From Xestospongia bergquistia (Eukaryota > Porifera > Demospongiae > Haplosclerida > Petrosiidae): DNA of 64,000 bases. Position 1 is the stretch's first letter, and each line of letters opens with the position of its first letter. Of the stretch, positions 1 through 44,387 are shown in pieces. Below the pieces are notes generated by a model. The model was not told the DNA's origin. It did no database searches and saw only the letters and a list, made by a program, of their open reading frames with translations. The position numbers and the translations under genes were made by a program. Location: positions 10,087,849 to 10,151,848 of the forward strand of contig OZ014412.1 in NCBI GenBank assembly GCA_963965975.1, written 5' to 3'.

Positions 1-116
1 TACAAGGTAATATAAATAAATTATGTAGGTCCATACTTAGTAAATACTTCTAACTAGCAAAGTTGTTACAAATGTTTTAATGTTTTCTACATGATACTTA
101 CATCTTTTTTCTGTAG

Positions 117-2211
117 ATATACCCGAACCAATAATATTGTCTTCAGTTACTGGTGATTACAATGTAGGCAGCAACCTGTCTGTTCTATGTACTGTTGACA
201 TTATTGATAATCTAGTCAATGTCAGTGTTAATGCTAGCATTGTGAAAGTAGAAGAAAACTCAAGAGTAACACTAGTTGATAATACTTTATCAGACAATAT
301 CACATTACATTTATTGTATGCACCATTAAAAGTATCTCATAGTGGTATATATGAATGTCAAGTGATGCTCGTCCAGTCATCAATCAACTATGAAGCTGTA
401 TATAAATCTATGTTTAATGTGAATATAACAAGTAAGTGCATTATACATGTAATGGCTGATCAGGTGATTACTTTTATAAACTGAGCTATTGTATGAATTC
501 ATTTTTCTCACTATAGTCCCACCACCTGATATTATAATGTCCATTGATCCTCCTGATGCTGGTGTATTGATTGAAGGCACATACATTGACTTAGTTTGTA
601 TTCCTCTTATTGGAGGTGTCAGTGATGTCTCCATTGATGTCACTATCACTTGGTTTCGTAATGAAAGTGTTTTAACTAATTCAACTGAATACACTATAAC
701 TAAAACTTCAGAACAATATGGTAGCTTTCTTCGCATTGAAGAGTTGCAATTCAACAGAGATAATTTAGCTAACTATATATGTAAAGTCAAAATATCTGAC
801 AGTCTTTATATTATTGGTAATGAAAATAGTTCAAATATTACTTTATCAGTGAAAGGTAAATGTAATCAGTTATATTTATTACTTTTCAATCTTACTTTAT
901 ATAGATTTTACATCTAGTGATGTTACAACATCTATTATCTACTCAAATCCACCTATTGCTGGAGATCTGTTCATAATGACTTGTAATATATCAGTGCCAA
1001 TGAGATTGGCTCATGGACCCAGTAGTGTCATTTGGGTACCTGAAACAATGCATGAGTTGGGAGGAGTATTAGGAAATATCACCAGAAATGGCAGTATATT
1101 CTTACACTCTCTTACTTTTGATCAACTAACAACTGATGATGCGATTTTATATTGTTGCCATGTAAATTTTCAAGATTTTAGTGTCAGTAGCAGTGACACT
1201 ATCACACTAAAAATTAAAAGTATGATATATACATTAAATCATTAACAGCATTTATATTTCTGTTTAGTTCCTCCACCAACAGTCTCTATAACATCAATTC
1301 CTGATCTCATTTATGAGAGTACTAAACTTAATCTGACTTGTATTGTTTTAAAACCAGATGCAGTTCGTGTGGGAGTGGAAGTCGATATAAAATGGCTAAG
1401 CTCTAATGGCACAGTGATAGTTAATGATAATCATATCACAGTTACTGATGTCATATCATTAAACGCTGATGAAGTCTTTCAAAAGTCACTAATTTTTAAT
1501 CCTGTTGACAATGGTGACTATAGCAACTATAATGATACTGGGAATTACATTTGTCAAGCAAATATTAGATCAGAGAATCCAAGGGTTATTGAAAATACAA
1601 ATATGTCCTTCTTTTATGTCAGTGTCAAAGGTAAGTAAGTTCTGATACACTTGTTTTCAAACTGAAAATATTATTGTGCTATTCCAATAAATGACATACT
1701 CATTACAAGTTATGTAGATCAGTCAGTGAACTTATTATGAATGATTTAGTGTATTGATAATTTAAGACAATAGCTAAGTCAGGAGGTTGTTCAATGTTAT
1801 ATAGTTAAAGTGTATATCTGATCAATTTTGCAAACCAAACACATATTATTTTTATTAAACAAAATTTATAAATAATTTATGTTTCCACTATAGACTTGCC
1901 TCCCTTGTCTCTGAGTATCTCTACAACTGGCTCAACAGATTTTGGCCATGTTTTCAGTCTAATTTGCAGAGCTAATTTGCATAACCTAATTCCAGGACTA
2001 TTACTTAAATGGACAAAAAATAATGAACCTTTGGATTTTCACATAATACCAGTAACAGAAAGAAACGAGAGTGATTTCAAGTTGCTTACAGCTAAATTTA
2101 CTAGTTTAATTTATAACATGAGTGGTATATATATATGTACAGCAGAATATAATGTCTCCATCACAAATGATGCTGAATCAAAAGAAATACAATATATATT
2201 AAATGTTACCA
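117..2211 (+). other. Five Ig-like domains, one per exon
   Basis: Exons 117-431, 517-855, 905-1219, 1268-1630 and 1894-2211 each encode about 105-120 residues with the Ig signature of an early cysteine and a late Y-x-C: YEC, YIC, YCC, YIC and YIC in order. The core tryptophan is present in copies 2 to 5 (for example TWF, IKW, LKW) but not evident in copy 1. N-glycosylation sequons (N-x-S/T) are frequent, consistent with an extracellular position. Symmetric phase-1 boundaries allow exon-wise duplication of domains. Confidence 0.85.
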
Positions 2212-5200
2212 GTAAGTTTTTAACCTTTTTAGTGACTTGTAATGTTTTTATTTAATGTACTCCTTACTTTTTAAGGTTTCAGTGGACCACAAAATTTTTT
2301 TGTTTCTGAAGTATCTCCTTTTCAACTTAGGCTACAATGGTCTCCTCCCAGTAATCCTATTGGTCCCTTTGATTATTATCACATTCACACAGCTTTCAGC
2401 AATGGTAGTTCTCCATTGGTGAATCAGATAGATGCTAATCAAACAGAGTACCTTTTAAAAGGACTGTCTCCTTATCAATTTGTTATCATTGAGATTTCAG
2501 CTCATTATGAGGCTGGTAATGGATCTGTTGCTAAACTCAGCCAATACACAGCACAATATGGTACAATTTCTATTTTTATAATATCTATAGTGTCCATAGT
2601 TTAAAACATTAGTATATGTTTCATCTAGTAGCAAATTGTTTTTCTTATTTTAAAGATGCAGGCCCTGTTAGAAACTTAAGCATTTCAACTGTCAATATGT
2701 CTACAGTGATAGTTAGTTGGCTACCTCCTGAAGAAGCTAACGGTATTATAGAACATTATAATATTTCATTGAGAATGTATAAAGGAAATGAATTACAAAA
2801 ATATAATACATCAGAAAACCAACAAATTCATATTATTAAAGAACTAGGTCAGTATAAACTCTCACTAAGAGACTATTTAATTACCATGTACTACAATTTC
2901 AACAGAAACTGCAATACCATATGAGATCATTATTTCGGCTGTAAATGGTGCTGGTGATGGAATGTCAACAACAAAAGTGTTCTTTGTAATGGAAGGAGGT
3001 ATGTAGAGCTATCTCTTAAAAGAGATTGTTACAGTGGCATGTGCTGCTTAAAATTTCCAAAATAGTCATATACTTTCAATATAATGTTCAATAAAAGTGT
3101 TTGTGTGTAATTTTCTTTCAGTGCCTCCTGCTGTGACTCGTCTTAATGCCTCACGTCTTAATGGTACACATATGAGAGTTGAATGGGGTTTCATATCACT
3201 GACTGAGTCTAGAGGTTTCATAAAACTATATGAAGTGCAGTATTTTAAACTAAATGAAGGAAAGCAGCAAACACTTTCAGTAGTTGTCCCATTTAATCAA
3301 ACTTATGTAGTTATCAATGATCTGAATCCCACCAGTGCATATAATGTGTCAGTTATTGCCAACACTAGTGCAGGTTCTGGAAACGTTAGCAATATCGTGA
3401 TGGTTGATCGTAAGTCATATGTATGTATCAACTTATGAATGATTCTAATGACTGATTGTAGGGCCAATGACATCCATGTTTGAAGTAAGTGGCAAAGATT
3501 TTCTGTCTTGTTCAGATTGGACGGTAAGTGATGTTTTGATAAATACATCTGCCTTTCCATGATTTCTTATAACTCTATTCTGTTGTACTTTGTAGAGCTC
3601 TGTTAATGATTCTATTAAAATGTTGATACGTAATACAGTAGTGACAACAATTAGAAGCAATTGTAGCTGTAGTTTTGAGGAGAACTACATCAGTGGAGAC
3701 ATTTTACTATGTAATGATACATCCTCAACCAATGTACTTTATAAAGCCAATATTACAGCTTATGGGTCAATATCTAGTGAGCAACTTAGACAGTGGGTAA
3801 CTAATATATCCTGTTACACTCAATATGAGGAAAATAATGGCAGCATTTGTTTGCAAACAATTTCCTCATCAGTGTTGATAACCAACACTGATTCTTCATC
3901 AGTTACATCTACAAGTGCTGTGTCTACACAGATAAACTCTGCATCCCCATCAGTTACATCTTCAAATACTGTGTCTACACAGGAAAATTTTCACTTAATT
4001 CTGACTATCTCCATTACAATTCCAATGTTAATTTTACTTTTTGTTTTAGTGTCGATCTGTGTAGTAGTACTCAGCGTACTTCTAAGAATATCTGCTAATA
4101 AAAAAGACAGGTGAGATGAAAATCACTCTTGCCACTAAAAAACCATAACTAGAAGCCATAAGTTGTTACATCTGATGAATACTGGTATATATATATTTAA
4201 TTTTTTTTGTTAGATATAAGTCTGGTCAAGTGTCATTAGAAATGACTATGTATGCAAGCAAGAATGCGTACAAAGACACTTTTGTAATATCATCAACTGA
4301 GATATCGGAAACAGACTCTGTCTACGAAAAAATAGATGTTACAGTAATGGATTCTATACAGACTCGTGCATTGCCACCACAACCAAATAGTGCAACTGTA
4401 TCATTACAGGCACACAATCAAAGTATAACATCAGGTAGGATGCTCTCTGTTTCCATACCACCTACTCATGATGCCGAAGAGTATGAAATTCCTTCTCCTG
4501 TAAGATCTAGTAACCAAAGTTCAAGCAGTACTCTGATGTCAAATGAGCAATCAGTTCATTTGCTAACACCTCCTTCATCTACAACATCATTAATATCAAA
4601 TAGCACATCAGCTTTAGATCAAGTTAATAATCCAACTAGAACACTTCTCAATTCAAGAGAGCAGAGAGTCAGATCATTTGATGTTGGAATAAATGAATAT
4701 CCTAGAGAATCCCGAAAGGCTGGATCAAGCTTAAGTCTGCCTCCATGTGTTAAAGATATAGATGGTTATGCTGCAATCACAAGAGATAGACGAATTCAAT
4801 CTGCTACATTAAGACCTTCATTTCCAATAGCAGAAGTGGCACAAGAGTATGAAGCACCTTTTACTTCATTAAATGAAGACATAGCACAAAGAGAGTATGA
4901 TTTGCCAAAAAGGTTAAAACCAAGTGAATCTGGAATTTCTCAAAACTCCGAAGGAGAGGAAACCACAATAATAACCAATGGTTGTTTAAGGGCACAGTCT
5001 ACTTTAGAGAAACCACCACAAGACTATGAAGTTCCAATATGTTCAGTTTCGTCAGCAGATGATAGTGTAGTTTCCATTTCTACACAAAATACTCAACAGT
5101 TCAGCCAGAATGAGTATAAACAACCACAAGAGTATGAAGTACCCATTTCTTCAGTATCTTCAATAAAGGATGTATTCTGTAATCCTCCTGCCACACAACA

Positions 5201-5744
5201 TTCAATTTTGGATTCAACAGGAGAGTATGTAATACCATATCACAAAGAACATACCAATGTGACCTCAGAAACACAACAGGAGAATGACCCACAAGATTAT
5301 GAGATCCCTGTTCCCTTAGCTTCACCAACAGATTATAATAGTGCATTTCTTCCAGCAACACAAGAAGAACAATCAATTCTGGAATCAACTGGTCTAGGAG
5401 AATATGTAAAGCTATCTGATGACAAGATTAAAGACTGTGCAAATGTGGATCCTGATGTGTGTGAGGTAAATTTGACACAAGAATTGGAAGTCCTAATATC
5501 TGTATCAGACAATGAATCTGGTGGAAGTCAAGAACCTGCACTAGATAAACTAGGCTATACGTATGCTGTAGTCAACAAGAAAAAAAAGAAAACTACTTCA
5601 ATGAAGACTGATGAAACGACTGACTGTACAGTATATTATAATGTCAATGTTAGTCCAAAAACAGATAATAAACGTCATCATTGGTACGAGAATGTTGATA
5701 TTGAATGCAAGTCAGGAAACGAAACTTCACCCAATAAAACATAA
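117..5744 (+). CDS. Ig/FN3 single-pass receptor with a multi-YxxP tail (5' partial)
   Basis: The first exon seen starts in phase 1 after an acceptor ending at 116, so the start codon lies outside the window. Exons read: 117-431, 517-855, 905-1219, 1268-1630, 1894-2211, 2276-2560, 2656-2847, 2906-2998, 3122-3409, 3462-3523, 3596-4110, 4214-5744. All phases agree, and the first nine junctions are phase 1, as is usual for extracellular Ig/FN3 modules. About 1538 residues are visible: five Ig-like domains, three FN3 domains, a Cys- and Ser/Thr-rich juxtamembrane stretch, one transmembrane helix, and a long tail in one exon. There is no kinase or phosphatase domain, so it should signal by recruiting SH2 proteins. 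It may be an adhesion or recognition receptor. The ligand is unknown and no vertebrate orthologue is claimed. The gene is convergent with the RNF213-like gene. Confidence 0.88.
2276..3409 (+). other. Three fibronectin type III domains
   Basis: Exon 2276-2560 encodes one FN3 domain with LQWSPP near its start and a late AHYEAGNGS-type turn. Exons 2656-2847 and 2906-2998 together make a second (VSWLPPEEANG, then SAVNGAGDG). Exon 3122-3409 encodes a third (VEWGF, then VIANTSAGSGN). The W near the start and the Y/A-N-x-x-G turn near the end are the family hallmarks. The second domain is split by an intron and the others are not. Confidence 0.85.
3462..4110 (+). other. Juxtamembrane Cys and Ser/Thr-rich segment plus transmembrane helix
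   Basis: Exons 3462-3523 and 3596-4110 encode about 190 residues. Several cysteines (SNCSCSF, LLCND, ISCY, SICL) suggest a small disulphide-bonded membrane-proximal module. Its pattern is loosely SEA-like, but the family cannot be assigned by eye. Next come two imperfect Ser/Thr repeats (SVTSTSAVSTQ and SVTSSNTVSTQ), a likely O-glycosylated stalk. A run of about 28 hydrophobic residues at roughly 3993-4085 forms the membrane helix, followed by a basic stop-transfer sequence (RISANKKDR). Confidence 0.75.
4214..5744 (+). other. Cytoplasmic tail with seven YxxP SH2-docking motifs
   Basis: One 1.5-kb exon encodes about 509 residues of acidic, Ser/Thr-rich, probably disordered tail. The tyrosine of each YxxP motif lies near 4482 (YEIP), 4847 (YEAP), 4893 (YDLP), 5024 (YEVP), 5134 (YEVP), 5227 (YVIP) and 5300 (YEIP). 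YxxP with an acidic preceding residue is the known binding motif of Crk-type SH2 domains, as in the p130Cas substrate region. Near 4322, SVYEKI fits the ITIM consensus, and near 5684, YENV fits the YxN motif of Grb2. The stop codon is at 5742-5744, followed by AATAAA-like sequence. Confidence 0.75.
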
Positions 5745-36400: not shown

Positions 36401-38139
36401 CCCCCATGCTTTATATAGAGCAACAGTGGAAGGTTAGTATGAATCTCTACGAGCTTACAGGTGGTAAAAGGAGCATTGACTCATGCAAATCTGCAATTAT
36501 AATTAGACACTGTGTAGTTCCATGTGATTCTAGATAATCATCATTTATCAGGCACAAAGTAGCAATGTAGGAATGTAACAGATTTTTCATATTGAAATAT
36601 ATACTCATAGAAAGTAATGAATATCTCATTCAAAACTGATCAAAAGCTCTTAAATCTTTACAGTATTTTTTTTCAATTATAATACCTTCATTATACCTTA
36701 GTTATATGTTAAGACAAGGTTTCTAAGCATCATAAACACAATTCATCAAATGAAGAGTTTGTTCATCTTTCTGCCTCTACTTTATAGTTCACAATAACTC
36801 ATTAAACACAGAAAATCCCAGAGTTAACATGCTTCTTGTACAATGAAGAGCTTTTTATAGGTCTCGTTTTGAGCAAGAAAATAGTGATTTCAGCGATTTA
36901 CTATTTGTTAAGTAGCCATTTATGAATAATTAATGTAACGAAACAGAAACGGATATGAACGGAGAATATACATTTCATTGTAGCTAAACTGAAGCATAGT
37001 CTCCTGTTTATGGCAGTAACTATAGACTATTTCCTGTTTTGATGTTTAGCTAAAAAGAAAATGCAGAATCATTATTGTACAACTATTAAGCCAGTGATTG
37101 TAAGCCTAGGTATGATGTTGTCCAGAATAATTCTAAGTTCCCAGCTACTTTTGTTATCGTTGTATTTAACTACCTAATAATAATACTAATCTTCATCATA
37201 ATGTGTAAGAACATTTTTTGTCCCAGCTACTTTTGTTATCGTTGTATTTAACTACCTAATAATAATACTAATCTTCATCATAATGTGTAAGAACATTTTT
37301 TGTGAGCTGGTTAAACATGGAATTTTATTGCCTTCAGCATGTTCAATATTGTACGGAAGCCGCAAAAGGACATTAATTTCTTATTTCTTCCGCGAACTCC
37401 GTATAACCCCGTTTAATTGAAATTGGAATGTCCGTCTGCGGTATCTATAGTATTGGCTTACAAAACACTTAAATTAAAATGTTTTCTAAAAATAAAATAA
37501 ATGCGGGTCTAATACATACAATGCAAACATGATAGTAGGGATAATAATTACAGCATACCTACATAATAGCACAAGAGTATAAACAAGTATTAAGGATATA
37601 CACCAACTATCTAAATCACTTAAATAACTTCAGTGATATGTCTTTGCATTCTGTGCCTGTGCTATTATGTAGGACAATGCCATTGCCATATCTATTATAT
37701 TGTTTTCACTCTTTGTATTGGACTAATACTACCCATCCTTACATATACTTGGAAATATTTTATTTACTTGTTATGATATTGGATTATAGACATCATGGGA
37801 TTAGACATTTTGGGGGATACAATTCTGGGATGCTTCCATGCAACTAAATCTCTCAGAAAAATACTTAATCTGCCTACATACTAGTTGACTCTCAATGCTT
37901 ATACATCACATATACGGTAGCATTTAACATAAACGGAAAAAGCGCTATTGTATACCGCTCTATACACTTACCAAGGTTTTCCGCATATCTGATAGAGTTG
38001 GTAGCGTATCTAGAAGTCTTTCAATTGTTTGAATCTATATATAAGCAAAGAAGAAGTCAAAAGATTGATTAGTATAAATTGTCATCACCTCTAATAGCTC
38101 GTCATCGCACAGAGAGCCTCCGCCACTTTCGCTCGACAT
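6889..38139 (-). CDS. RNF213-like: RNF213-like giant AAA+ ATPase / E3 ubiquitin ligase lacking the RING finger
   Basis: One gene of many short exons spans about 31 kb. Recognition rests on blocks in vertebrate RNF213 order: AAA2 P-loop (near 21.55 kb), AAA3 Walker A GETGCGKT and Walker B FFDEANTS, AAA4 Walker A GKPGSSKSLAK and Walker B LDEVGLAE, then FGSSFPKDSEFAQ, METGRMVILLNLENLYESLY, FPIPLINRLEKH, an E3-module helical shell, an RZ-type finger, and a C-terminal domain ending in ATWKQIVCLQDDIKKTRH and a TAG stop at 6889-6891. Vertebrate RNF213 (about 5200 aa) is a cytosolic, lipid-droplet-associated ligase acting on bacteria and viruses. The proposed start is ATG at 38137-38139, with an A at -3, followed by MSSESGGGSLCDDELLE and a clean donor. 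The N-terminal half (about 24-38 kb) is divergent, and its inclusion rests on continuous strand, spliceable exons and absence of another promoter. The RING is missing (see 11702-11760). Confidence 0.9.
9733..9877 (-). other. RZ-type zinc finger of the RNF213-like protein
   Basis: Two exons (9843-9877 and 9733-9794, intron between) join in frame to give ECIQGHQYTSEM followed by IECPCPQCGN. The C-x3-H then C-x-C-x2-C pattern matches the RZ finger of vertebrate RNF213 (CPNGH ... CIDCHAPIGG) at the same place, between the E3 shell and the C-terminal domain. In vertebrate RNF213 the RZ finger, not the RING, is reported as needed for ubiquitylating bacterial lipopolysaccharide. The GECG part of the vertebrate finger looks shortened here. 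Confidence 0.75.
11702..11760 (-). other. Intron marking the place where the RING finger is missing
   Basis: The upstream exon ends GLQKL at 11761 (donor GTATGA) and the downstream exon begins PRNQQDPIRKSCWSFFLDLL at 11701. In vertebrate RNF213 the equivalents (ASKTLSRFG and FRQMCNSFFVDL) are separated by the C3HC4 RING and a short linker. Here they are joined directly across 59 bp, too short to hide a RING exon. The upstream block (LKWQWICVMKMFFEYVVL, about 11.9-12.0 kb) also aligns with the RNF213 helix before the RING. No C-x2-C/C-x-H-x2-C cluster was seen in neighbouring exons. Confidence 0.7.
12717..13800 (-). other. RNF213-like block linking the AAA core to the E3 module
   Basis: Exons at about 13187-13795 and 12717-13097 encode a region matching vertebrate RNF213 in order. 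They contain SSTSFVLLIHLPKK and QEQPWLCYHVDDI, then LQEAGTFLNALIRK and ISFADRNCNLELL (human has a near-identical SFIDRDGNLELL). The segment stands just before the E3 shell and identifies the family even without the RING. Confidence 0.75.
14402..15115 (-). other. Conserved core segment following AAA4
   Basis: Three exons carry some of the strongest matches to RNF213: VLFGSSFPKDSEFAQ, then CMETGRMVILLNLENLYESL with YDVLNQ, then VDLGLRTNRMKCTVHQQF, and then LVLIAEKDKVYDEF with PIPLINRLEKHF. This stretch is almost invariant across the family. Splice sites are standard and no disruption is visible. Confidence 0.82.
16500..17164 (-). other. AAA4 ATPase unit (Walker A and B intact)
   Basis: Walker A GKPGSSKSLAK is at about 17021-17053. 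Walker B LDEVGLAEAS is at about 16753-16790, followed by LPLKALHPLLEDG, and by VAFIGISNWALDPAKMNRG in the next exon (about 16540-16620). The lysine, serine, aspartate and glutamate needed for ATP binding and hydrolysis are all present, so this site should be catalytically competent, as in vertebrate RNF213. Confidence 0.85.
18562..19148 (-). other. AAA3 ATPase unit (Walker A and B intact)
   Basis: Walker A GETGCGKT is encoded at 19101-19124, preceded by PVVLM and followed by HLIRYMCKIAA. Walker B VVFFDEANTSD is at about 18853-18880, followed by MCDGRCKGKLVPPFLKFVAA and a CNPYRK sensor-like motif. These are the hallmarks of the second active ATPase ring unit in RNF213. Residues for ATP binding and hydrolysis are intact. 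Confidence 0.87.
21278..21600 (-). other. AAA2 unit with P-loop
   Basis: The exon encodes RVRVVTSTQSGVGKSLYIRK (P-loop GVGKS at about 21540-21560), followed by a lysine-rich helix and VPLHGPVVTSDEVLSMLLKD. The vertebrate protein has a similar VVTSTHCGVGKSLYV segment in AAA2. Whether this site hydrolyses ATP cannot be told: no clear DE Walker B follows, only IIHLDIP. Confidence 0.7.
23586..23742 (-). other. UBA-like helical segment in the RNF213-like protein
   Basis: Within exon 23397-24227 the translated stretch from GLDDTQKKLFNELICLGYDD to EEISDIYSAMEWIDDC resembles a ubiquitin-associated (UBA) domain: a L-G-Y/F loop after helix 1, a central hydrophobic helix, and a final A-x-E-W-[I/L] helix. 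It lies near the start of the AAA core. The assignment is by pattern only. A UBA is not a recognised part of vertebrate RNF213, so it may be a chance resemblance. Confidence 0.35.
29440..29755. mobile_element. MITE-like inverted-repeat element, copy 1 (decayed)
   Basis: The left arm contains CCAGTCCATTACAAAGAATG and CACCCCTACATAATAGCACA. The right arm (TGTGCTATATATGTAGAGAC and CTTTGTATTAAGCTGA) is a weak reverse complement. It has the same ends as the better copy at 30719-31015. No coding capacity is visible, so it is a non-autonomous DNA element. It is the most eroded of the three main copies. Confidence 0.5.
30719..31015. mobile_element. MITE-like inverted-repeat element, copy 2 (best preserved)
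   Basis: About 300 bp fold back on themselves. GTCAGTCCAATATAAAGAAT near 30776 pairs with ATTCTTTGTATTGGACTGAC near 30955-30974. ATCCCTACATAATAGCAC near 30830 pairs with GTACTATTGTGTAGGGAT near 30932-30949. AT-rich outer arms (AATAAAAAGGACG-type on the left, TTTTTTAC-type on the right) extend it. Target-site duplications were not resolved. The structure is that of a non-autonomous terminal-inverted-repeat transposon. Confidence 0.65.
32229..32450. repeat. TA and TACC/TATC microsatellite cluster
   Basis: An intron of the RNF213-like gene holds alternating GCTGTTATATATA runs (32230-32305) followed by imperfect CATCTACATTTG and (TACC)n/(TATC)n tracts to about 32440. Overlapping open frames here are translations of the simple repeat and not genes. 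Confidence 0.85.
33530..34780. other. Long intron of the RNF213-like gene
   Basis: No coding exon was recognised between the exon ending near 33.5 kb and the one near 34.8 kb. It contains an inverted-repeat element (33913-34245), a short dispersed repeat (about 34667-34750, also seen near 63.77 kb) and otherwise AT-rich sequence. Confidence 0.5.
33913..34245. mobile_element. MITE-like inverted-repeat element, copy 4 (related subfamily)
   Basis: AATTCATTAAATGTAAGGATGGC near the left end is the reverse complement of the right-end GCCATCCCTACATTTAATGA, with one or two mismatches. The right flank TTTACTTGTTG recurs at the ends of copies 1 and 3. The internal part differs from copies 1-3, suggesting a subfamily sharing termini. 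No open frame is present. Confidence 0.5.
37140..37303. repeat. 82-bp perfect tandem duplication
   Basis: The segment starting CCCAGCTACTTTTGTTATCG at 37140 repeats directly at 37222 without an evident mismatch, so the duplication is recent. It sits inside the long 5' intron. Confidence 0.9.
37467..37775. mobile_element. MITE-like inverted-repeat element, copy 3
   Basis: CTACATAATAGCACAAGAGT near 37558 pairs with TGTGCTATTATGTAGGACAA near 37656. The distal right arm CTCTTTGTATTGGACTAATA near 37710 matches the arm of copy 2. The right end TTTATTTACTTGTTA is shared with other copies. It is non-coding and lies in an intron. Confidence 0.55.
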
Positions 38140-38235: not shown

Positions 38236-39347
38236 ATGGATCATGACTTGCTGAAATATCTTAGTCCTTCTGGTGTGGACGAAGAGGAATTACGGAGAAA
38301 AATTATCCCTCAACTAATAGGCAAAGGATTCAAGAAAGTTGGCGACCTTGAAGATTTAGAAGAATCAGACTTAAATGGTAAGTTAACTCAAGTTTTATTC
38401 ATTTCTTATGTATATTCTAACAAAGGATTCGATGAATTAACTAAAAGGCGTATATGGAAACTAGTTCATTCTGTTAATAGGCCTTCAAACTTTCCTGTTA
38501 ATATTGACGTCTTTCAAGAAGATCAAGAATATGTTATCTATGTGCGTTATGTTTTTTGTTCTGGTGATCTCTTTTCTGATGACATTATGCAGACTGACAT
38601 AAAAGATATTGATCCTACAGCAATGACACTATTGGATATTAACAAACATATTTTAGAAGATGCTAAGATACCTCCAGAACAGACTATTGAATTATATTCT
38701 AGTGAAGGGTATCCCCTACAAAACAATGAAATTACCAATAAAGGTAATACTTACAAGTATTACTGTTGTTAATCTATCTCTTCTTTACTGGTAGCATCCC
38801 TAAAATTATGGGAAATATGTGATGGCGATTTGTTTTATGTGATGATTCGTCCTAAAGAGCAACCAGGACATCGAAAGTTTGCTACATTACCTGAGCTAGA
38901 TCATGACATTGGTAAGAAGAACAAAGTCGTATTAACAATTATATTTAATGTTTTCAGGTCAAGAAACATTCAATATTGAAACACCATTTCATGGATGTTT
39001 TCAAGTCAATGCTTATATGGATTGTGACTCTCCTGAGGATATTGCACAGAAAGTGTACAGTCTTACTGATATACCAGTTCCATATATCTCTTCATTTATT
39101 AGGTAGCTAAATAAGATAATAATTGTTTGTTTGTTGTGTTTTGTTTTTACTTAGACGAGGGTATAATTATGAAAGAATGAACGCCTTTACTGAAATGGAA
39201 GATGGAGATGTTATACGAATAGTATTGAGAGATCCACAAGAAGTGATTCATCCTCGATCACCACATTATGGAATCCGTACTTACAACCCTCTTGTACCAC
39301 AATCAGAAGAAGGTATGTCCAAGTTTTACTCAATCTTGAAATATCTG
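38236..39347 (+). other. SAM-like N-terminus and two ubiquitin-like regions
   Basis: The first 66 residues form a helical bundle pattern (LLKYLSPSGVDEEELRRKII, then FKKVGDLEDLEESDL and FDELTKRRIWKLVHSV), like a SAM or SAM-like domain. Next comes a beta-grasp pattern: strand YVIYVRYVF, helix TLLDINKHILEDAKIPPEQT, strand IELYSSEGYPL, and the ending DLFYVMIRP. A second similar unit follows: GCFQVNAYMDCDSPEDIAQK with IPVPYISSFIRRG and DVIRIVLRDP. There is no C-terminal Gly-Gly, so these are built-in interaction folds and not conjugatable modifiers. Confidence 0.55.
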
Positions 39348-42300
39348 GTTAGTTCGTTATATTTTTATGACATGCAATGAGAACTATTTACAAACTAGTG
39401 CTCAACACAACCTTTCAACAAAGAATATGATTTTGAGAAACTTCTGTCATATCTCATGAATTTCACTAATTTTCCTCCACTTGTCCATGCTCTTCGATCC
39501 TTGAAAGACCATTCATTTCTTTCTTTAGCTGGATGGGTAAGTAGTAGATCTCTTGCAATGGATGTGGTTTAGCAATTAGCATACAGACAGATAAGCTATG
39601 GATTTTGATGTTCAATTCGCAGAAAATAAACCTACTTTCCTTGTGAACAATATTCTATTACCCATTAACATACAGTTCTGACTTCTGAGTCTCAGATTTA
39701 TTTCATCAACTGCTTTATGTACCATACTAATTACAATTTTTAGGGTACAATAAAGAATCACAACTGTAATATTATTATATTATTAACATATTATCATAAG
39801 ATTTTTATTTTAGACTGCCCTTATTGAAGGATGCTATTATCTCTTTAAAAAAGTTATCAATAACTTTGCTACTGGTAAGTATCATTTTATAATAAACTTG
39901 TATTTATTATAAAAATAAGTTGATGATGAGAAGATATTTGGATATTCTGATTATGTATGGTCTATCTTCATTCTTAATTCTCATGTAAGATGACAACACT
40001 GTTAGGATAGCTATTATAATCTCTGCTAAATTAAATAGGCAGTTGAAGATGAGTCTAACATAGAGTCTGAGTTACATTCACTGGTGTGCCCACTCTCTGG
40101 TGTAAAGATTTCTAATCCTGTTTGTATTTCGTCGCATAATAGCTTAGGACCATTTGATAAAGCAAACATTCTGGCTAAGATTAAAGGTACCTTGATATAT
40201 AGAGTTAGTATATAATTATATCAGTGTAAAACTGGTTGTTTTGAATTAACTAATCTATAATCATCATTGTATATAATATTCAGTGAAATATAGTAAATAC
40301 CACTTTGTTCTCATTTCTAATAGACTAATGACAAGTCATTTAGTTGATTCGTCAGAGTTATAAGATCCTGTAAAACAAGTCATTATAGACAATACCCACC
40401 TTAATCTGTATGCACAATATAGTCTATTTCCTTCTTATGTTGTACTGTGTTAACATAGAAGGATGAGACATCTGGGTTTTTTTTCCTAACAGGGAAATCT
40501 GTTCCTTCTTCTGTTTATACTATTACTATCAGTAATGTCTGAGTAACTATAGTATATTAGCAATTAAAATACAGTGTGGTTTACTATACTTCACAATATC
40601 TCATTATGTACTATTAGCAAGAAAAATGATTGTGGATTGGTTAAATCAACTAATCCATTTTTATAGCATATATATACATATCCTATATGAATTATTATAG
40701 GTGGTGAAAAGCTATCTGAGTTTGGACTACATGTTACTATCAATGATAAGGAAATAATCCCAGATTTACTCACATCTCGACTTCTAATGTATTATCCTTG
40801 GGAAACAAATACAAAAGTCAGTGTATGGTATAATCCACCAGAGGAAGTTATCCCAATGTAAGTCTATTAAGTTTTAGTACATTTTAGTTATTGTATTTCA
40901 TTTAGGGTTTGTAAAAGAGTTGAGGCGAACTTCACATGGTTTGATATGTTGAGATCTCTGCCAGAACTATGTGTTGTTAATCCTTGTGGTTTGTATGCTG
41001 GATCTGAATGTCTTACATATGACAGCAATGGTGAACAGTCTACTTATTAATAAAATCGTTTACTGTTATCAATGCACTTTAGGAAAACTTGTTTATTTTA
41101 TGGGTGCTTCAAAAGGCACTGATGAACACAGGAGGATTTACAACCCTCAGTCAACCAATGAAGATTATTTACAATTAGTTTCAAAGGATGAGCTTGATAA
41201 AATTGGGAGGTATTACAAAGACTTTCAGTTACTTATATAACATTTGTCATTTAGGCAACTTGGACATAAGATTTTTTCTCATGACATTGTAAGCGTTCTT
41301 AAAGATGTCAGTTTATTTACAGAAAAAGTTAATACATCAGCTGCTATCAGGTGTGATGTGTAAAAATGTTTTTGATTAAAAGTAATTTGTTATTTTAAGG
41401 GCGTCTGCTATTATACAGCCTCAAGAAAGTATACGTTGGGAAACTGAAGAAGCCATTGTTGTGAGTTAACTATATACAGCTTTTCAAATAACAAGTAGGT
41501 TTTATTTGATCACAGTGGTTCAATGGATGAAGATGTCTTTCCAGAAGAGTAAGGCATTAAAATATATAATTATTATTAAGATTTTTTTCAGAATACCAGG
41601 ACTAAGAAGAATTGATGCAGCTAAAGAGTTATTCAATGCTTTTGTTACACGAACTCAAGCTTATAAACTCCATCACTCGTTTGGGCTTACATTGTTTAGT
41701 ACTTTAATAACTGTTAAACTGAACATTACTAAAAATGTGGAGGAATTTGAAGTAAGTTGTTATTATAGAATCTTACAGTAATTAAAAATACAAAATACAT
41801 GCATTGCAGAAAATAAAGAGTAACATTCACTTCCTACCAGTAAACTGGTAGGAAGTGAACATCACTGTTTAAATTTTTACAGTTCAATACTTTAGATTTC
41901 TTAAGCCATTTATGTCTCGCATATTAAGCAATCCTTGCTTAGATTGGACAATATGTTGAGACTATTATTTCCAGATGTTTCATGGTACAATATGTTATTA
42001 TCAAAGCTAGTAAAATAATAATATTCACACTGTAACCACTTATGCATATACCACAGCCAACAATTATAATTTATTTAACATAATAGTATTATTGCCATAA
42101 ATGTTTGCATTAAAACTCATATCTTTATTCAGTCTTCAATGTTACTTGTAAAGAATTAACTTAACTATGTCATGTGGTGTTTGCATAGTACACATATGTC
42201 ACTTTTAGAAATACACAGGAAAAATCTATTAATCATTTCTGTTGTAATAGATGAGTTTGAAAGAGGTGGAACCTACAAATCGAACTTCTTTAACAGAAGC

Positions 42301-44387
42301 AATTATTAATGCTGTCAGCCAACTTAGAAGGTACACTTGTCAAAGGTTAGATTTTCTATTCACATACAAAGCTAACACTTATATTAATAGACGAATACTA
42401 TGCTTAACTGATGGATTTAACAATTGTGGAACATCATATGCTACTGCCTTGGAGAGTGCTAGAGTAAGTGTATATTCTGGATGTGTTTTCAATACATTTT
42501 TACACATAGAGTAACAATGTCATTGTAGACACAGTGTTATTAACTTGGCCAGATGATAACAGTGAACAAAAGGCACTGTCCCATGCCACAGGTATATTTC
42601 TTTCAGGTATATTGATACTGTATAGCCAGTTGCTTTCATCATGGTAGACTGAAAGCAAATGGGATAATTGTGTAAATTTCTAAAACAACTTTGTGCATAC
42701 AACAGAACTGGACAATATCAGTAGAAAATGAATGTGGTTATTTAGTCTATACAAACACAGCTATATGAATATTATTACTAATAATATTCATATAGCATGT
42801 CCTAAAGCTCATAAATCATACTTAAATTATCATTGTGAGTTTGTGATCATACACTATTTGTGGAAATGACTAATACTACTATCTAACATTTGTGTAAGCC
42901 ATCCATCCCAATGAATTTAAAGGTTTCATCTGTTGAATGTGATAAACCAATTATTTGAAGAACTTGTAACAATTCATTGTGAGGGCTGTTGTTGACCATT
43001 CCTTTCAGAGGAATCACTAATAAGTAGATTGCATGTTTATGCTTACAAAAGTATAGGCTTGCAAACTCTAAACTTGTTATGCTATTCTATTCCATTGCGG
43101 CAAAACATATAAAGTTAATGACACAAGCCTATGTATAGCAACATGATTACAATCAATTTGTAAATTCAATTTGGGCATGTGATGTGATCTATGGTAATTT
43201 ATACAACAAGTTAGCTGAATCATTTATATGTAGGTGGAGTTTGTGTTCTTCCTAGCACAATGCAAGAGGCTTTGAGATACTTTGAAATGGATTCTATGCT
43301 CTCTGTAAAAGAAAGACCCATTTGTTGGCAAAAAAAAATAATGGTAAAAGTAATGCTTTAATGAGAATACTCATATGTTCAAAATTTAGACTGGTATTGC
43401 TTACTTTGAAGATGAGACAATTTTTCCATATGAAACTGAAGATAGTTTTAAGTCTAGTTACATTCATATGTTCCAACAAGTTAAAACATCCTCTACACAA
43501 AAGTTAGCTTCTTGTGTTATGTATAACACACTGTAAATGTGTAATAGATATTTAAATGGCAATAAAGGAAAGTTGTATGATTCATCTCAGCAGAGGCGAA
43601 TAATGAAGGAACTAATGGAGTTTATGCATAATCCTCATGATCACATTTCAATATTCCCTTCCCAAAACGAGTATGTTTATTTTCTATTCAAGTCATTATT
43701 ACAATAACATTTATATAGGTATAATAAATGGAAAGTTATTATGTGTGCACCTGAACACACTGCATACAAAAGAGGTAATGTATTCATAATTACTATGTAT
43801 ATTATTACATAGTTGTGGTTATGTTATAGGAACATTTGTACTAAGTGTTCATTTTCTTGAAAAGTATCCCTTTGTACCACCTGAAGTTCGCTTCTTGACA
43901 TCAGTAAGTTCTAGGAAGATGTGATAAAAATGCTACACAGTGTACATAACATAATTATACTATATCTGTAGATTTATCACTGTAATATTAGTAGTAGTAG
44001 TGGCCGAATATGTCACAGCATTCTTGGTGAATCCTACACACCATCTACTAGTATGCGTGACATTCTATGCTACATTTATGGACTACTAATGTGTCCTGAT
44101 ATGGACAATCCTCTTGATAGGTAGCTTGACTTTAACATTTTGTCATATGTTATCAATACTAATTAGTGCTCTTGCTGATGAATATGGATATCTAAGTCAT
44201 CGAGAAAAGGATTTAAACAAAGCATTGAATTCAGATAGGTATTTTAGAGCAACAAAAACCTATTTTGACAAAGCTGAATTTCATGTCATGCTTCATGCAA
44301 GTAAACGTAAAGAAGATTTAGAGAAGGTTAGACACTGTTTATAAATTTTAATTATGACTTTGTTTCTTATAGGAATTAAGTGGATAG
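38236..44387 (+). CDS. Ubl - U-box-like - vWA - E2 ubiquitin-conjugating fusion protein
   Basis: The 26-exon model is consistent in phase throughout: 38236-38377, 38426-38743, 38795-38911, 38958-39102, 39155-39347, 39399-39536, 39814-39874, 40043-40186, 40701-40857, 40906-41030, 41083-41209, 41255-41350, 41400-41460, 41499-41548, 41592-41751, 42251-42330, 42391-42463, 42510-42591, 43234-43343, 43390-43502, 43548-43670, 43719-43774, 43830-43903, 43972-44120, 44167-44326, 44373-44387. It predicts 1022 residues. The ATG at 38236 has context AACGATGG. Order: SAM-like helices (about 4-66), two beta-grasp ubiquitin-like regions (about 70-190 and 193-300), helical linker, U-box-like segment (from C387), unassigned region, vWA with MIDAS (about 600-735), E2 (about 840-1000, Cys929). 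It is probably a cytosolic ubiquitin-transfer protein that scaffolds its own E2. Junctions at 39347/39399 and 43502/43548 are least certain. No known orthologue name is claimed. Confidence 0.87.
40043..40186 (+). other. U-box/SP-RING-like segment
   Basis: The exon encodes VCPLSGVKISNPVCISSHNS followed by LGPFDKANILAKIK (residues about 386-419). The C-P-L-S...P-V...H...F-D layout resembles a U-box or the SP-RING of PIAS proteins. The second zinc-ligand pair expected of an SP-RING is not obvious in the next exon, so a U-box or a degenerate fold is more likely. If functional it would recruit an E2, possibly the one fused to the same chain. Confidence 0.45.
41400..42591 (+). other. von Willebrand factor A domain with intact MIDAS
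   Basis: Strand 1 with DxSxS is split over exons 41400-41460 and 41499-41548 and reads AIVVLFDHSGSMDED (D612). Exon 41592-41751 gives the amphipathic helix and the FGLTLFST strand. Exon 42251-42330 holds EPTNRTSLTEAI, whose T supplies the third MIDAS site. Exon 42391-42463 gives ILCLTDG, the fourth. All metal-site residues are present, so divalent-cation-dependent partner binding is expected. Intracellular vWA domains often act in protein-complex remodelling. Confidence 0.85.
41826..41859. repeat. Perfect inverted repeat (16-bp arms, 2-nt loop) in an intron
   Basis: TTCACTTCCTACCAGT at 41826-41841 is followed by AA and the exact reverse complement at 41844-41859. It lies in the roughly 500-bp intron 41752-42250 of the E2 fusion gene. 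It is GC-richer than its surroundings and could fold as RNA or cruciform DNA. Confidence 0.9.
42760..42796. repeat. Perfect inverted repeat (18-bp arms, 1-nt loop) in an intron
   Basis: GCTATATGAATATTATTA at 42760-42777, a single C, then its exact reverse complement at 42779-42796. It is in the 642-bp intron 42592-43233 of the E2 fusion gene, the second such hairpin within 1 kb. Confidence 0.9.
43548..44387 (+). other. C-terminal E2 ubiquitin-conjugating (UBC) domain
   Basis: Helix 1 reads RRIMKELMEFMHNP. The beta-meander contains KWKVIMCAPEHTAYKRGTF and FLEKYPFVPPEVRFLTS. The active-site loop reads IYHCNISSSSGRICHSIL, where Cys929 aligns with the catalytic Cys of canonical ICLDIL. HPN is changed to HCN, with the oxyanion Asn kept. 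The helix after it (MRDILCYIYGLLMCPDMDNP) matches canonical VLLSIQSLLxDPNPDDP. Downstream, AlaAspGluTyr and a short helical tail end at TAG. The catalytic elements suggest an active E2. Confidence 0.85.

Follow-up and report, generated by a model that had tools for sequence, protein, structure and literature searches.

A predicted protein joining a von Willebrand factor A domain to a ubiquitin-conjugating enzyme domain in the sponge Xestospongia bergquistia, and a paralogue with a U-box behind the E2

We analysed a 64,000-nucleotide stretch of the genome of the sponge Xestospongia bergquistia (assembly GCA_963965975.1, contig OZ014412.1, positions 10,087,849 to 10,151,848; hereafter the window, whose numbering is used unless another contig or locus is named). 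The subject of this report is a gene in this window, gene A, in which a von Willebrand factor A (vWA) domain and a ubiquitin-conjugating enzyme domain (E2, or UBC) are read in a single frame. Gene A occupies 38236-44387 of the forward strand, to which all its features below belong, and consists of 26 exons encoding 1027 amino acids and a stop codon. Exons 1-13 lie at 38236-38377, 38426-38743, 38795-38911, 38958-39102, 39155-39347, 39399-39536, 39814-39874, 40043-40186, 40701-40857, 40906-41030, 41083-41209, 41255-41350 and 41400-41460, and exons 14-26 at 41499-41548, 41592-41751, 42251-42345, 42391-42463, 42510-42591, 43234-43343, 43390-43502, 43548-43670, 43719-43774, 43830-43903, 43972-44120, 44167-44326 and 44373-44387. 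Splice signals guided the manual construction of the model, which was then corrected against two paralogues, B and C, described below. The start ATG is at 38236 and the stop ends at 44387; an in-frame TAG lies upstream at 38095, with no ATG between the two. All 25 introns (38-642 bases) are of the GT-AG type, their phases are those of paralogue B, and the frame is open over the 1027 codons. The initial annotation of this DNA had placed a single gene with a phase-consistent frame at exactly these coordinates, and in this it was right. Its count of 1022 codons is replaced by 1027: the donor of exon 16 is taken at 42346 instead of 42331, a difference of five codons, which gives an exon of 95 nucleotides, the same length as in B, where the longer exon is also found.

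From the N-terminus, the encoded chain shows a helical segment resembling either a SAM or a helix-hairpin-helix (HhH) fold, two ubiquitin-like (Ubl) modules, a helical stretch, a degenerate U-box-like segment, a middle region, the vWA domain, the E2 domain and a tail. The Pfam and PDB searches with the whole chain, and the search of the genome for family members, were made with an earlier model of 1007 amino acids in which the junction of exons 5 and 6 is wrong. Three Pfam matches pass the cut-off, UQ_con (1.6e-32), VWA_2 (1.2e-10) and VWA (3.2e-6); below it are DUF1194 (0.0017, over the vWA domain), zf-Nse (0.15) and RWD (0.18, over the E2 domain). As profile assignments, UBC and vWA are certain. 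The vWA domain spans 41455-43259 (about residues 607-770), and its metal ion-dependent adhesion site (MIDAS) is formed by D612, S614 and S616 (41508-41522), T690 (42284-42286) and D717 (42410-42412). The E2 domain spans 43594-44185 (about residues 852-976), with an HCN motif at residues 923-925 (43978-43986) and the catalytic cysteine at C934 (44011-44013). When the C-terminal part was searched against the PDB, E2s and ubiquitin carrier proteins made up the best 60 of 297 matches, the top one at 8e-24. None of the five MIDAS residues changes across A, B and C, and H923, N925 and C934 are likewise invariant in the three genes, at an identity of 32% between A and C; the catalytic cysteine, histidine and asparagine and the HCN motif are kept in the fourth family member, D, as well. 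A passage in PMC10971424 gives the E2 motif as histidine, proline or cysteine, and asparagine, so that HCN is tolerated in an E2. The initial annotation had described an intact MIDAS and an E2 fold with its catalytic cysteine and asparagine, and had looked to UBC and VWA matches in one chain for support. These descriptions hold, and both matches are past the cut-off.

A search of the sponge's own genome (146 Mb, 21 contigs) returned 51 matches, which comprise four family members, A to D, and more distant E2 matches. Judged by sequence similarity, A, B, C and D form a small gene family. Gene B (C2:10218000-10222719) lies on the same strand as A, 86 kb beyond it, and the two are 73% identical. 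The two genes agree in the phase of all 25 introns, of which 24 lie at exactly the same position and one beside an alignment gap; the intron sequences align at only 44-79%. Over 1021 codons the nonsynonymous divergence (dN) is 0.168 and the synonymous divergence (dS) 0.757, a dN/dS of 0.22. Since every intron keeps its phase in B and dN/dS is this low, the frame of A is more than a product of chance; genes A and B are continuous reading frames under selection. By part, dN/dS is 0.34 in the vWA domain, 0.38 in the middle region and 0.18 in the E2. Exon 24, which holds the active site, is identical at 48 of 49 residues and has a dN of 0.009, the lowest of all exons except the four-codon exon 26. 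The dS of the UBC part (0.28) is below that of the other parts, and exon 24 (43972-44120) also has a lower dS than most exons; gene conversion between A and B may have contributed to these low values.

Gene C (about C4:7859.1-7864.5 kb) is 32% identical to A, and its N-terminal modules were assigned through the alignment. From the vWA domain to the end, C consists of 14 GT-AG exons that read in one frame through the E2 and a U-box to the stop. Its last 487 amino acids give Pfam matches past the cut-off to VWA_2 (5.2e-8), UQ_con (6.7e-35) and U-box (2.3e-10). A GC-AG intron was noted by eye in C at about L031:6057. Gene D ends about 4.4 kb upstream of C and keeps the second half of the vWA domain, the E2 and a U-box (3.5e-16, past the cut-off). 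When the genome was scanned for U-boxes, 11 matches appeared, and two of these lie directly behind the E2s of C and of D. The E2 exon of D is shorter than that of C (L030:8264-8330), so that joining it to the U-box exons by the ordinary splice breaks the frame. A one-frame vWA-E2-U-box chain in D was therefore rejected for the ordinary splice; an alternative, in-frame splice from E2 to U-box is possible. D is probably a partial and broken copy. In A, exon 26 (44373-44387) reads ELSG and then a stop, as does its counterpart in B, whereas the matching exon of C begins ELTKES and continues into the U-box. The vWA-E2 order is thus read in three genes, A, B and C; the vWA-E2-U-box order is present in this genome in C, with the final part missing in A and B. 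As predicted from its domains, C would carry E2 and E3 on one chain from the vWA domain onward, with a frameshift suspected upstream. The initial annotation had presented A as a self-contained transfer device. The sequence gives no support to this: no domain of A is past an E3 cut-off, and of the genes with a genuine U-box behind the E2, C has it in frame and D, by the ordinary splice, does not. AIG1-like GTPase frames lie near C and D (1.6e-22, 8.7e-8 and 5.7e-8 in the three frames scanned), and several AIG1/GIMAP-like GTPase frames are close to the two genes in L030 and in L046 (C4:7838628-7850352). Between the AIG1-like genes, frames on the reverse strand resemble by eye a Ty3-like long terminal repeat retrotransposon (L046, C4:7841088-7845097).

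For the remaining segments of A, hhalign was used to compare A/B/C profiles with families drawn from the sponge's own genome, built from 8 of its 93 ubiquitin matches and from 5 of its 11 U-box matches, those of C and D among the latter. The percentages below are single comparisons on shallow alignments. Ubl 1 (38533-38865, about residues 84-177) reaches 60.7% with the ubiquitin family over 54 columns, and 8 of its 14 PDB matches are ubiquitin chains (E 0.22-1.2). Ubl 2 (38966-39248, about residues 196-272) reaches 65.7% over 67 columns; its profile search of the PDB returned five coiled-coil chains only, all with E above 1. The degenerate U-box/MIZ-like segment (40066-40798, about residues 380-452) reaches 77% with U-boxes over 37 of 96 columns. 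Its profile matches four PDB chains, two from plant U-box proteins (E 0.78 and 1.7), the identity of one of which is presumed, and two unrelated. Five cross-control comparisons of the segments gave 0.1-0.8%, and the two Ubl segments matched each other at 0.9%. No ubiquitin, U-box or SAM profile of Pfam passes the cut-off on gene A. On the internal segment, Pfam gives zf-Nse at 0.0047 in A, below the cut-off, and nothing in the copy of C. We therefore call this segment U-box-like only, because the U-box profile cut-off is not reached. Of the features named in the initial annotation, both Ubl folds and the U-box-like segment thus find support in the profile comparisons, with controls below 1%, but not at the Pfam cut-off. 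Its domain list did not contain the N-terminal helical segment (38236-38481, residues 1-66, with one intron inside). A SAM profile has no Pfam match there in A, and the copy in C matches SAM_TNK at 0.0036, below the cut-off. In the PDB, the A/B/C profile of this segment ranks DNA ligase (0.024 and 0.034) and RAD51C (0.06) first, in regions that we take to be HhH, so that an HhH-like fold appears as well supported as a SAM-like one.

We propose, with a probability of about 0.6, that the product of gene A is a ubiquitin-transfer enzyme built around its E2, with the vWA domain serving as a recognition arm. From the domains and their conserved residues we infer an activity, a ligand, a form of gating and a partner, as follows. 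An E1 would charge C934 with ubiquitin. The metal-dependent face of the vWA domain would bind a ligand, a partner or the target, the N-terminal and Ubl modules would assemble or place the chain, and the chain would carry the charged E2 to the chosen target. In C, the genuine U-box behind the E2 could provide E3 function in cis; because the C-terminal U-box is missing in A and B, these two would have to rely on the degenerate internal U-box or on a partner E3. Several observations weigh against this proposal. Three short exons have a dN above dS, namely 12 (preceding the vWA domain), 14 (vWA) and 22 (E2). Clean, full-length genes appear to be limited to A and B: exon 7 of C has a suspected one-base frameshift (L031:5490-5560, by eye), and D is without its 5' part, its E2 and U-box being out of frame with each other by the ordinary splice. 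The Ubl, N-terminal and U-box-like assignments are all predictions below threshold, and Ubl 2 is just 13% identical between A and C. Two positions near the E2 active site also depart from what is usual. The residue at Cys+2 is serine in A and B, against aspartate in two ordinary E2s of the same genome, one Ubc13-like and one Ube2C-like; it is proline in C and D and in a Ube2L3-like E2 of the genome. The second, usually acidic position is Asn966 in A and serine in B; it is aspartate in C and D, and serine also in the Ube2C-like E2. Acidic residues near the E2 active site matter for lysine reactivity, and if these roles hold, the E2s of A and B may have low lysine reactivity. UBE2L3 (UbcH7) is described as being without lysine reactivity in passages of PMC10971424 and PMC7311170.

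The same departures could mean that A serves as a regulator or scaffold and that its E2 domain has lost catalysis in vivo. The missing acidic residues, the lack of a C-terminal U-box in A and B and the faster evolution of the vWA domain and the middle region relative to the E2 would all fit such a role. The catalytic cysteine, histidine and asparagine, however, are kept in all four genes, and the very low dN of exon 24 points to a constrained active site; we consider this alternative rather unlikely. The continuity of the gene is far less in doubt. The 642-base intron near the vWA/E2 junction might indicate that a Ubl/vWA gene and an adjacent E2 gene were wrongly joined, but no stop separates the halves and the equivalent intron in B has 143 bases. 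In B the linker exons stay in frame, keep their phase and remain similar at the protein level, with a dN/dS of 0.176 between the vWA domain and the E2 and an excess of third-position changes in exon 20 (p 0.01) that is weaker in exons 19 (p 0.079) and 21 (p 0.11), and C reads from vWA to E2 in a single frame. Two separate genes are thus very improbable. It is just as improbable that A is a decaying duplicate: decay is seen in C, by the suspected frameshift, and in the partial D, where the ordinary splice breaks the frame, while A and B are open over all 26 exons with a dN/dS of 0.22.

A further alternative concerns the neighbours of A and B. On the reverse strand, head-to-head with A, lies an RNF213-like AAA+ gene, R1 (6898-35836; a rough extent, taken from the exons shared with its duplicate R2 among the matches listed). 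A second such gene, R2 (C2:10176047-10217253, reverse strand), is head-to-head with B and is the closest other copy to R1, at 68% in the AAA segment. Four pieces of R1 were searched against the PDB, and one exon among them matches RNF213 at 6.4e-19. Among the matches listed, the outermost exon common to R1 and R2 is about 2.4 kb from the ATG of A and 0.75 kb from that of B. An RZ-family scan of the genome gave nine matches, none of them on C2. The absence of an RZ finger from R1 was nevertheless rejected, since reading the exons revealed a degenerate one (about 9880-9730, reverse strand). In R1 and R2 the C-x3-H and the CPxC or CLxC elements are present, the loop between them is five residues shorter, and neither the active-site cysteine position (His+7) nor the later histidine is kept (splices by eye). 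The roles of the corresponding type of residues in mouse RNF213, Cys4462 and His4483, are treated in a passage of PMC12075652. An extra cysteine near the finger could in principle replace the active-site one. Elsewhere in the genome, both the cysteine and the later histidine are kept in the two copies read of the six on C12, and the cysteine is kept on C15. A RING pattern was not found in any RNF213-like copy examined, the pattern being blind to a RING split by an intron.

These neighbours allow a reading in which A and B each work together with an RNF213-like partner in an RNF213-type immune machine. The vWA domain would dock on the AAA+ ring of the divergently transcribed RNF213-like protein, as the MIDAS domain does in Rea1. 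The A-R1 and B-R2 pairs look duplicated as a unit, and the degenerate RZ active sites leave room for another transfer module. RNF213 favours the cysteine-reactive E2 UbcH7 and functions without its RING, and Rea1, a relative of RNF213 with six AAA domains, works with a C-terminal MIDAS domain, as stated in passages of PMC7311170; the E2 of A is without aspartate at Cys+2, like the Ube2L3-like E2 of this genome. Against this, adjacency is no proof of interaction, and the degenerate RZ finger speaks against R1 taking ubiquitin from A. The genome holds at least 12 RNF213-like copies (13 matches), and among those found only R1 and R2 are on the same contig as a gene of the vWA-E2 family, a placement that both owe to one duplication. 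R1 frames have a sole match, of 17 residues (E 0.005), within the 39.4 kb that surround C and D. We regard this reading as unlikely, although slightly less so than a dead E2. A wider version of it is less likely than either: a split, AAA+-driven ubiquitin machine, made of an RNF213-like motor with a degenerate RZ and the vWA-E2 chain and coupled through MIDAS as in Rea1, next to a self-contained C branch with vWA, E2 and U-box in an AIG1/GIMAP-type neighbourhood.

Elsewhere in the window, a receptor-like gene at 95-5744 of the forward strand has Ig-like repeats (by eye), FN3 repeats (1.4e-10, in the one frame scanned) and a long tail in which YE(I/V)P motifs recur. On the reverse strand at C10:6593239-6593628 (L004), an E2 match lies within a stop-free frame of 339 amino acids and apparently belongs to a larger or unusual E2.

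If the chain of A is active as an E2-centred transfer enzyme, its E2 would always be attached to a recognition domain that depends on metal; in C, a U-box on the same chain would be added. One molecule would then both choose the target and carry out the transfer, a convenient setting for testing cis E2-E3 transfer. Because A is paired with an RNF213-like gene of degenerate RZ, the rewiring of RNF213-type systems in this lineage could also be addressed.

Parts of this arrangement have precedents. The eukaryotic comparison by search covers the sponge's own genome. Bacterial, archaeal and viral relatives were sought with narrow patterns on viral contigs and on genome contigs, and none was confirmed for the queries, which for the viral contigs included the E2s of A and C mixed with two other E2s of the genome and, once, an ordinary Ubc13-like E2. 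No vWA-E2 or vWA-E2-U-box family was found in searches of open-licence papers, as judged from titles, the first parts of abstracts and passages. Plant vWA E3 ligases of the RGLG type combine a RING with a copine vWA domain and are not known to have an E2 on the chain. Gene A has no RING by Pfam, and a six-frame scan of the window found no uninterrupted C3HC4-like RING, although one divided by introns would escape such a scan. A Mimivirus protein annotated as a bifunctional E2/E3 enzyme has both functions on one chain. We know of no vWA domain or U-box in UBE2O, and the giant BIR-UBC proteins discussed below are presumably those of the BIRC6/BRUCE type. Like A, UBE2O is a large single chain with a UBC domain and further regions, and it is described as having both E2 and E3 activity; it differs in its CR1 and CR2 regions and coiled coil (passages of PMC10393103), whereas A has a vWA domain and Ubl-like modules and C a U-box behind the E2. 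The BIR-UBC giants resemble A in that their UBC domain is likewise C-terminal within a large protein of many domains, but they contain BIR repeats and measure 4000-5000 amino acids, with no vWA domain or Ubl pair mentioned in the relevant passage of PMC2964712. In the fungal clade 6A PARP-UBC proteins, a UBC domain with an active cysteine is fused to an unrelated enzyme domain, according to passages of PMC2964712 and PMC4245714; there the partner is PARP, and in A it is vWA. E2 fusions, E2-E3 hybrids and vWA E3s are therefore already known, and the vWA-E2 chain predicted here would represent a variant of the E2/E3-hybrid idea.

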